From Exiguobacterium sp. s146 (GTDB taxonomy: Bacteria; Bacillota; Bacilli; Exiguobacteriales; Exiguobacteriaceae), in NCBI RefSeq assembly GCF_018618415.1, contig NZ_JACSMA010000002.1, forward strand, positions 124,001 to 188,000: a stretch of 64,000 nt of DNA. The letters are read 5' to 3'. Every line of letters begins with the position of its first letter. The first letter of the stretch is position 1. Shown here one piece after another: positions 52,195 through 55,712 of the stretch. Made by a program: the position numbers and the translations under genes. The notes under the pieces were generated by a model, which saw only the letters and a program-made list of their open reading frames with translations, did no database searches and had not been told where the DNA came from.

Positions 52195-52255
52195 ATGTAG
52201 AGGGTAGTCAATCAAGAGGTTTTTCGAGTACGCTACTAGGTGGGAGGTGAACCAA

Positions 52256-53131
52256 ATGACGGTACAATTACCGATTCGGTTTCGCAATATATTCTTTATT
52301 TTAATCGGTTCCTTTATTTTCGCGTTCGGCGTCTATCATTTCAACGTCCAAAACAATTTGGCGGAAGGCGGATTCACGGGAATCACCTTGATTCTGCGCG
52401 GGTTGTTCGACTGGTCGCCATCAATCACGAACTTGGCGCTCAACATCCCACTCTTTTTCGTCAGCTATAAGCTGCTCGGGCGGACGACGTTCATTTACAC
52501 GCTCATCGGTACGTTCAGTTTCTCGCTTTGGTACGCCCTTATCGCCAAATACTCGAACTTGATCATCGATTTGACGGACGATATGGTGCTCGCGAGTCTA
52601 TTCGCCGGTCTTTTCATCGGGATCGGTCTCGGCATCATCTTCAATAATGGCGGGACGACGGGAGGCGTCGACATTATCGCCCGGCTCGTCCAACGCTACG
52701 TCGGTTGGTCGATCGGCAAGACGTTCCTCGTCTTCGACTTTTTCGTCATCGTCCTCAGTTTGACGTATCTCGATATCCGCGAGGCGATGTACACGCTCCT
52801 CGCCGTCTATATCGGTGCCCGCGTCATCGACTCGATGCAAGAAGGGACCTATGCCGGCAAGGCCGCCATGATCATCAGCGACCATCGTACGGCCATCGCT
52901 GACGGGATTCACGCCACGATGAACCGCGGAACGACCCGACTCCTCGCCAAGGGCGGCTATTCGAACAAAGAGCTCGAAGTGCTGTACGTCGTCGTCGGAC
53001 GAAATGAGGTCAACCGCTTGAAAACGATCGTCAAACAGATCGACCCGCACGCCTTCGTGACGTTCCACCACGTCTATGAGGTCGGCGGTGAAGGGTTCAC
53101 GTTCGACGAAAACCGTGTACCGCTGAAATAA
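52256..53131 (+). CDS. YitT-family membrane protein (ypjC position)
   Basis: This 291-residue protein has five or six membrane segments in a YitT/DUF161 domain (residues about 10-200), with GTTGGVDIIARLV. A C-terminal cytoplasmic DUF2179 domain (about 215-291) follows. No transported substrate is known. GGGAGGTGAACCAA sets the start at ATG 52256 rather than the GTG at 52247. It occupies the place of ypjC in B. subtilis; mgsA and dapB, which lie between bshB1 and ypjC there, are missing. Confidence 0.83.
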   Translation: MTVQLPIRFRNIFFILIGSFIFAFGVYHFNVQNNLAEGGFTGITLILRGLFDWSPSITNLALNIPLFFVSYKLLGRTTFIYTLIGTFSFSLWYALIAKYSNLIIDLTDDMVLASLFAGLFIGIGLGIIFNNGGTTGGVDIIARLVQRYVGWSIGKTFLVFDFFVIVLSLTYLDIREAMYTLLAVYIGARVIDSMQEGTYAGKAAMIISDHRTAIADGIHATMNRGTTRLLAKGGYSNKELEVLYVVVGRNEVNRLKTIVKQIDPHAFVTFHHVYEVGGEGFTFDENRVPLK

Positions 53132-53418
53132 GTCACGACAAACAACGCCCCGTTCGGATGAACGGGGCGTTTCGTTATGGTTCGATCCGCGTCGACGATG
53201 ACGGCATCGGCGAGCAGTCGCTCCAGTTCGATGATTTTGGTTTCAATCCGCTCTTGTTCCCGGACCGCCTCTACATACGTCACGTCTTCACGAAAATCAC
53301 AAAACTTCCGTGCCGTCTTGACACGTTCGAGCGCCTCACGTCGGCTGTCGCCGCGCAACGTCTCGAGCTGTTCTTGTAAGCGGAGTCGCCCCGCTGTCGT
53401 CAACTGTGGTCGATGCAT
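53074..53418 (-). CDS. GreA N-terminal coiled-coil domain protein, C-terminal domain absent
   Basis: This 114-residue product matches the GreA/GreB N-terminal hairpin over residues 6-75 (LTTAGRLRLQEQLETL...ERVKTARKF). The acidic tip residues D41 and E44 fall at the same numbers as the catalytic pair of E. coli GreA. The FKBP-like domain that binds RNA polymerase is missing. Residues from about 80 on run through a terminator hairpin and antisense to the end of the YitT gene, so they look untemplated by selection. AAAGGAG six bases before ATG 53418 shows a real start. Confidence 0.65.
   Translation of the reverse strand: MHRPQLTTAGRLRLQEQLETLRGDSRREALERVKTARKFCDFREDVTYVEAVREQERIETKIIELERLLADAVIVDADRTITKRPVHPNGALFVVTYFSGTRFSSNVNPSPPTS
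53144..53172. terminator. Terminator between YitT gene and GreA-N gene
   Basis: Perfect arms AACGCCCCGTTC and GAACGGGGCGTT around GGAT. On the minus strand it lies inside the GreA-N reading frame, before the stop codon at 53074. T tracts are short on both sides. Confidence 0.75.
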
Positions 53419-53446: not shown

Positions 53447-53475
53447 AAAAAAATCCCGTCACGTGGACGGGACTG
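53447..53475 (-). terminator. Terminator of the zinc metalloprotease gene
   Basis: TCCCGTC and GACGGGA arms around ACGTG, followed on the minus strand by a run of eight T's. Confidence 0.88.
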
Positions 53476-53481
53476 ATGCTT

Positions 53482-54165
53482 CTACTCATCACGTGGCATG
53501 AAGACGATGAGCGCCAAACGAATCAATTCGGCGACAGCGACGAGTGTCGCGGCCACATAGGTCCAAGCTGCCGCGTTGAGCACTTTACGCGCGCCCGACT
53601 CTTCCGTTGCCGTGACGATGCCGTGGCTCGTCAATTCGGCCATGGCGCGTTTCGAGGCGTCGAATTCGACCGGTAACGTGACGAGTTGGAACACGACCGC
53701 CCCGAGCATCATGATGACACCGAGTTGGGCGAGGCCCATCGCGCCGAGCAAGAACCCACCTAAGAGAAGCGGGAACGACAAGTTCGACGTGATGTTCACA
53801 ACCGGGACGAGACGGTGACGGACCCGCATCATCTTATAGTCGGTCGCATCTTGAATCACGTGACCGATCTCGTGGGCCGCAATCGCAGCCGATGAGATCG
53901 TCGAACCTTGATACACTTCGCGCGACAAACGGACGACTTTATTGACCGGGTCGTAATGGTCACTCATCAAGCCATCAACCATCTCGATGCGGACGTTATG
54001 AACACCGTTTTGTTTCATGATGAAGTCAGCGACTTGTGCACCTGTGACGCCGCTTTGAATCGGTTGTTGGAGAAACTTTTTGTACGTACTTTTCACTCGC
54101 ATCTGGGCCCATAGCGGGATGAGCATAATCAGTGCAAGATAGAAAATATAGCCACCTAATGACAT
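53482..54165 (-). CDS. Membrane zinc metallopeptidase, YugP family
   Basis: This 227-residue membrane protein has a zinc motif HEIGHVIQD in the first half. Four hydrophobic segments (about 4-20, 115-155 in two parts, 195-215) are seen. It fits the neutral zinc metallopeptidase 2 (YugP) family, whose substrates are not defined. GAGGTGA eight bases before ATG 54165 is preferred to the in-frame GTG at 54177. It does not occur at this position in B. subtilis. Confidence 0.83.
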   Translation of the reverse strand: MSLGGYIFYLALIMLIPLWAQMRVKSTYKKFLQQPIQSGVTGAQVADFIMKQNGVHNVRIEMVDGLMSDHYDPVNKVVRLSREVYQGSTISSAAIAAHEIGHVIQDATDYKMMRVRHRLVPVVNITSNLSFPLLLGGFLLGAMGLAQLGVIMMLGAVVFQLVTLPVEFDASKRAMAELTSHGIVTATEESGARKVLNAAAWTYVAATLVAVAELIRLALIVFMPRDE

Positions 54166-54203
54166 GTTCTCTATCACCTCTGCGTGTATTTGATAATCTG
54201 ATT

Positions 54204-54871: not shown

Positions 54872-54906
54872 AAGAAGCGTGGCCCGTTAGACGGGCCACG
54901 CTTCTT
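54872..54906 (-). terminator. Terminator of qcrABC
   Basis: Perfect arms of 16 bases around TAG, ending AAGAAGCG/CGCTTCTT, just after the qcrC stop. The T tract on the minus strand is short. Confidence 0.85.
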
Positions 54907-54917
54907 ACACCAATCGA

Positions 54918-55712
54918 TTATTGGTTGTTTTCGCCGCCTTCACCGTATGACGCGATGAATTCAGACATGGCTTGGAGATCTTCATCCGAACCGTCCCATT
55001 GGCCGGCTGGCATCGTACCGACACCGTTGACCGCGATATCCGCGATCTCTTCGGCCGTGTACTGCGTGCCGACGAGTGCTGGAGCGGCTGCTCCGCCTTC
55101 GAGGTTCTGTCCGTGACAGTTCACGCAAGACTGAGCCGAATAAATCTCATAGCCAGGTGCGGCTGTATCGATTTCAGGGCCTTCGCCCGGAACTTCCAAA
55201 ATCCCTTGTTCATGAACTTGATCCCAGTGTGTCGTTTGGACCGATTCCCACGTCAAGTAGAAAATCGACAAGACGCCGAGCAACATGAAGCTGATCGCGA
55301 CCGGACGTTTCGCCGGACGGCGTTCGAGTCCTTGGTCGAGCCATGGTGCGATCAAGAGCGCCGTGAAAGCGACCCCTGGCAAGATGACCGTCCCGAGCAA
55401 GATCCAATCCCCTGCTGCGAACTGATACTTGAGCAATTGATACAAGAACAAGAAATACCAGTCCGGAAGCGGAATGTATGACGTGTTCGTTGGATCGGCG
55501 ATGTTTTGGAGCGGTGGGGCCTCGACGATCGTCAAGGCGATGAATCCGATCAAGAAGACCGAACCGACCATCCACTCTTTCAACAAGAAGTTCGGCCAGA
55601 ACGCTTCCGTGCGTCCTGGGTACTCTGAATAGTCTTTAGCAATATTTTGTTTCCGATTCGAGATTCCTACTCGAGAGTCGGTTACAAATTTCATCCCTTT
55701 ACCGCGATGCAT
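54918..55712 (-). CDS. qcrC: Menaquinol:cytochrome c reductase, cytochrome b/c subunit
   Basis: This 264-residue fusion has a subunit-IV-like part with three membrane helices (about 48-64, 103-123, 138-155), including PLPDWYFLFLYQLLK near the quinol site. A C-terminal cytochrome c domain follows, with heme motif C196-V-N-C-H200 and probable axial Met234. It passes electrons from menaquinol to cytochrome c outside the membrane. GGAGGAG lies eight bases before the ATG. It is last in qcrABC. Confidence 0.95.
   Translation of the reverse strand: MHRGKGMKFVTDSRVGISNRKQNIAKDYSEYPGRTEAFWPNFLLKEWMVGSVFLIGFIALTIVEAPPLQNIADPTNTSYIPLPDWYFLFLYQLLKYQFAAGDWILLGTVILPGVAFTALLIAPWLDQGLERRPAKRPVAISFMLLGVLSIFYLTWESVQTTHWDQVHEQGILEVPGEGPEIDTAAPGYEIYSAQSCVNCHGQNLEGGAAAPALVGTQYTAEEIADIAVNGVGTMPAGQWDGSDEDLQAMSEFIASYGEGGENNQ

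Follow-up and report, generated by a model that had tools for sequence, protein, structure and literature searches.

A greA paralogue truncated by a 221-nt deletion in Exiguobacterium sp. s146, very probably a young pseudogene

The locus and its open reading frame

The analysed window is a stretch of 64,000 nt of contig NZ_JACSMA010000002.1 from Exiguobacterium sp. s146. The draft genome has 22 contigs and 2.85 Mb, with a completeness of 100% and a contamination value of 0.07. The genus was set as Exiguobacterium by named matches, and the nearest named record is E. chiriqhucha RW-2, with 92% identity over residues 1–79 of the protein under study. The ORF itself runs on the minus strand from 53418 to 53074, starts with ATG, ends with TAG (53076–53074) and encodes 114 amino acids. 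The ribosome binding site upstream of its ATG, AAAGGAG, was rated good, in line with the preliminary description of this DNA. The ORF and its surroundings are listed in Table 1, where greA2 is our own name for the paralogue of which the ORF holds the 5' part.

Table 1. Features at the greA2 locus (window positions)
Feature	Position	Strand	Basis or remark
YitT-family membrane protein with DUF2179, convergent neighbour	52247..53131	+	Pfam 1.3e-60 and 8.8e-20
Accidental reading-frame extension, 37 codons and stop	53074..53186	-	Translation
Terminator hairpin between convergent greA2 and yitT	53144..53171		12 pairs, 8 G-C, loop 4
Ancestral TAA stop, out of frame in the window copy	53175..53177	-	Same TAA ends the intact gene in L003 and L004
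Deletion junction	53186..53187	-	DNA alignment and coordinates
Surviving 5' part of GreA paralogue (greA2), codons 1–77	53187..53418	-	PF03449 and alignment with 16 orthologues
Upstream terminator after the zinc-peptidase gene	53452..53474	-	33 nt before the greA2 ATG; also in G017
Putative neutral zinc metallopeptidase (Zn_peptidase_2), upstream neighbour	53482..54177	-	Pfam 7.6e-83

The ORF had been described as the coiled-coil N-domain of GreA with the acidic residues D41 and E44 at its tip. Residues 6–74 matched Pfam PF03449 (GreA_GreB_N) with an E value of 9.3e-15 and 55 bits (cut-off 24.5). A phmmer comparison with the PDB gave an alignment to E. coli GreA (1grj) over residues 6–79 (E 6e-5). 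Because this alignment is gap-free, the acidic pair can be numbered as in E. coli. Both D41 and E44 are present, in this alignment and in that of the orthologues, so the description held on both counts. Codons 1–77 make up the N-terminal coiled-coil hairpin with this pair and the tip ARKFCDFREDVTY. The protein model predicted helices at 8–38 and 46–71 and placed the hairpin at good confidence. The tail, residues 78–114, was modelled at a pLDDT under 50 and is predicted to be disordered.

A terminator inside the frame had also been proposed, at 53144–53172. The hairpin was found with 12 pairs and ahead of the stop codon, and its coordinates were corrected to 53144–53171; its tail reads GTTTGTCGTG. 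Its folding z-score was –3.85 and was equalled by one of 200 shuffles. From the ATG to the hairpin, the frame is free of stop codons. As had been stated, the stop lies beyond the terminator and antisense to yitT: the frame extension crosses the terminator and then the antisense 3' end of yitT, the stop follows about 67 nt past the stem, and the ORF shares its final 58 nt (53074–53131) with the opposite-strand gene. The same hairpin stands directly after the intact stop codon in the two closest relatives (copies L003 and L004), and close variants occur in L007, L008 and L009. It is an ordinary terminator between convergent genes, inherited from the intact state.

All 18 greA2 starts, that of the window and those of 17 relatives, lie 15–33 nt after an intrinsic-terminator-like hairpin. 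Therefore, little room is left for a promoter, and greA2 may be expressed only by read-through of the upstream terminator. A role of this terminator as an attenuator of greA2 was rejected, since the same hairpin occurs in genome G017, which lacks greA2. Because it is kept there, it probably belongs to the peptidase gene, though it may still play a part in the expression of greA2. Excerpts of PMC6829880 describe a terminator in the leader of E. coli greA that takes part in autoregulation, and the likeness of the two arrangements is architectural only.

Farther along the window, a strong 16-pair terminator-like hairpin (54872–54906, minus strand) lies upstream of an ORF for a 204-amino-acid membrane protein (54818–54204). 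It stands after a cytochrome-c-like ORF that ends at 54918.

The deletion and the state of greA2 in relatives

DNA alignment of the ORF with the copies L003, L004 and L005 showed that one block is missing from the window. Against L003 and L004 the block is 221 nt long and corresponds to nucleotides 233 to 453 of a 465-nt ORF. The DNA on both sides of the gap matches the relatives closely. At the junction, GACGCGG is followed directly by ATCGAACCATAACG. The motif TCGA lies at or beside both deletion ends in L004, and the deletion probably arose between these short repeats. The domain that it took out is the RNA-polymerase-binding C-domain of greA2, which had been described as gone and for which no PF01272 match was obtained in the window ORF. 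A length of 221 nt is not divisible by 3; the old stop codon is therefore out of frame and is bypassed by translation, and it sits 3 nt before the hairpin. In the relatives, the DNA that corresponds to the tail codons 78–114 is noncoding or antisense to yitT. Therefore, the terminator comes before the stop only as a consequence of the deletion.

The paralogue greA2 is present in 17 of the 18 other genomes of the genus. The 16 copies that can be read to their end are all 151–156 amino acids long and contain the GreA C-terminal region; both PF03449 and PF01272 were matched in each of the three full-length copies tested out of these 16. The seventeenth copy, L006, meets a contig end at residue 111, inside the C-domain. 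The preliminary description had offered a shortened secondary-channel factor as one of its two readings and an orthologue alignment as the check. In that alignment D41 and E44 are kept, within a conserved tip. The short length is found in no orthologue, L006 running off its contig, and each of the 16 copies with a readable end continues into the C-terminal region, an outcome that the preliminary description had itself named as grounds for refutation. Accordingly, a conserved short factor was rejected. The other reading, a decaying greA fragment, stood in so far as the ORF is a fragment, made by the 221-nt deletion. The gene concerned is a second paralogue and not the housekeeping greA: the canonical gene (L002) is intact elsewhere in the window genome, with 217 bits against an NCBIfam cut-off of 145, and greA2 forms a clade of its own.

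A second GreA match was absent from all 18 genomes of the sister genus, which belongs to the same family. In each of the seven that were checked at the locus, the zinc-peptidase gene lies next to yitT in convergent orientation, with no greA2 between them. Therefore, either the genus has acquired greA2 or the sister genus has lost it. Genome G017 has kept both the upstream and the downstream terminator with a short spacer between them (L038). This spacer may hold a remnant of the greA2 3' end, for which the alignment is ambiguous. The locus in G017 is a second, independent loss of greA2 between the peptidase and yitT genes. Within the genus, G017 has thus lost greA2, and the window genome has a truncated form of it. 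A phage origin was set aside: L003 found no relative when it was used to scan viral contigs, a method that reaches close relatives only.

Interpretation of the truncated copy

As is typical of a pseudogene or truncated allele, the orthologues in the relatives are intact while the window copy has a disabling lesion. In the one genome of the species at hand, the window ORF is very probably a deletion-truncated greA2, that is, a young pseudogene whose mRNA would be stop-less and would be cleared by tmRNA. A single deletion, probably between the TCGA repeats, stripped the C-domain and shifted the frame. Translation thus overruns the old stop and enters the terminator that formerly followed greA2. 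Most transcripts would end at the hairpin with no in-frame stop, and ribosomes would therefore reach the end of the RNA. We consider it sound to infer such a stop-less transcript. The stalled ribosomes would be freed by tmRNA, whose gene is present in the window genome (191 bits), and the product would be tagged for decay. The loss of greA2 would be tolerated because canonical GreA remains. The ORF is an example of a deletion that leaves an open frame through a terminator, an arrangement that seems exotic if only the sequence is considered.

It is very improbable that the deletion stems from faulty assembly or sequencing and that the gene of the strain is in fact normal and full-length. The single draft genome with its 22 contigs would allow for such an error, and the deletion is seen in none of the related genomes. 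Against it stand the clean 221-nt gap within a long contig, the closely matching flanks, the plausible short-repeat junction and the completeness and contamination values of the genome. An assembler would not be expected to collapse repeats as short as about 4 nt, which also speaks against an artefact.

The state of the remnant bears on whether the truncated protein still works. For codons 1–75, dN/dS was 0.06, 0.11 and 0.115 in the pairs of the window copy with L003, L004 and L005, respectively, and 0.10–0.24 in the three pairs among these intact copies. Changes unique to the window N-domain were six synonymous and one amino-acid change, and the counts for L003 were identical. No sign of decay was seen in the N-domain by dN/dS or by unique changes. 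This fits a recent deletion, and it equally fits an N-domain that is still used. In the latter case the coiled coil alone would enter RNA polymerase as a secondary-channel factor, with weak transcript cleavage or with competition against full-length GreA. Koulich et al. in 1998 reportedly made a weak activity of the GreA N-domain conceivable. Besides the undecayed domain, the intact D41/E44 pair and 13-residue tip and the hairpin predicted at good confidence agree with a working protein, and antipause activity is ascribed to the GreA N-domain in the excerpted text of PMC7527559. However, the C-domain is kept in every one of the 16 orthologues that can be read through, and the transcript probably lacks a stop codon. 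The same excerpts (PMC7527559) point in this direction for E. coli GreA: the C-domain, the main polymerase-binding part, promotes binding to RNA polymerase, both domains seem to be required for specific binding, and the overexpressed N-domain (stop after codon 75) was without the lethal effect of full-length GreA. Hence we regard a working truncated protein as very unlikely. The young pseudogene remains the preferred reading, and the window ORF itself is of little importance. The intact greA2 of the relatives is the more interesting object.

The intact paralogue and known Gre-type factors

The tip of greA2, residues 36–48 (ARKFCDFREDVTY), is invariant at 13 of 13 positions across the 16 full-length copies and is common to the window copy and L006. 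Outside the tip, only six of 63 positions in residues 1–76 are invariant. The pairwise identity of greA2 is 42–78% (six pairs), against 89–99% for canonical GreA (15 pairs from six genomes of the genus). Canonical Gre tips read GDLSEN, GDISEN or GDLKEN in 30 of 30 rows. In the window (53274–53418, minus strand) and in L003–L019, the invariant tip has Cys40 beside the catalytic Asp41.

A search for DFREDVTY in 398 genomes of the phylum, done with an exact 24-base degenerate pattern that misses near variants, found one genome, the window's own. A greA2 profile was run against 250 Bacilli genomes at a cut of E 1e-34, strict enough to miss paralogues with weaker matches than canonical GreA. Scores were 182–260 bits in 12 other genomes of the genus, and the truncated copy of the window scored 125 bits. 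Of the genomes outside the genus, 69 passed the cut, none with more than 134 bits, and the eight best of these matches, all inspected, had GDLSENSEY tips. In a tree built without the incomplete window copy and L006, the 16 greA2 rows fell into one clade with a support of 100/100, L019 being on a long branch. Full-length greA2 of the relatives belongs to GreA/GreB by its two domains and its GreA fold. The AlphaFold model of L003 had a pLDDT of 87.7, and its best Foldseek matches in the PDB were GreA, Gfh1 and GreB. By these comparisons, greA2 is a fast-evolving paralogue with a frozen private tip, found only in Exiguobacterium among the samples.

Among the papers listed by literature searches on GreA paralogues and truncated GreA, none dealt with greA2, one of these searches being too loose to be informative. 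'Exiguobacterium' with 'greA' gave one mention each in a study of an actinobacterial niche and in a review on Deinococcus, as judged from their titles and opening abstract lines. As a speculative and on balance unlikely proposal, greA2 could be a cleavage factor private to Exiguobacterium and gated by redox state or by metal, or else an inhibitor of the polymerase like Gfh1. It would be produced only by read-through of the upstream terminator and would be so dispensable that it was lost at least twice. In this tentative proposal, an invariant Cys adjoins the Mg-binding aspartate in a frozen tip while the protein body drifts fast. If the intact greA2 has a changed activity, it would be a genus-specific addition to the secondary-channel factors, and strains that have naturally lost all or part of the gene would be available as knock-outs. 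The extra members of the family of GreA, GreB, DksA, TraR, Rnk, Gfh1 and Rv3788 are mostly without a known role, according to excerpts of PMC4598747.

Three known systems were compared. With GreA (1grj, L002), the window copy shares the N-terminal coiled-coil hairpin with D41 and E44 and, unlike GreA, lacks the C-domain. The full-length copies of the relatives also share the GreA_GreB C-domain and the fold (TM 0.77–0.86). They differ in the tip, CDFREDVTY instead of GDLSENAEY or GDLSENSEY, and in the score for the NCBIfam GreA equivalog (cut-off 145), where L003, L013 and L019 obtained 127, 121 and 109 bits, all below. Rv3788 of Mycobacterium tuberculosis is a second Gre-like gene beside a working GreA; as described in parts of PMC3132773 and PMC4598747, it keeps the acidic tip residues and inhibits without stimulating cleavage, and greA2 is likened to it by description. 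Gfh1, a GreA-like inhibitor of Thermus, is an extra paralogue beside GreA, as greA2 is. The modelled greA2 has the same fold, with a TM of 0.85 to RNA-polymerase-bound Gfh1. The tips are different: that of Gfh1 is an acidic run, SSDDYDDS, whereas that of greA2 has DxxE and then DVTY.
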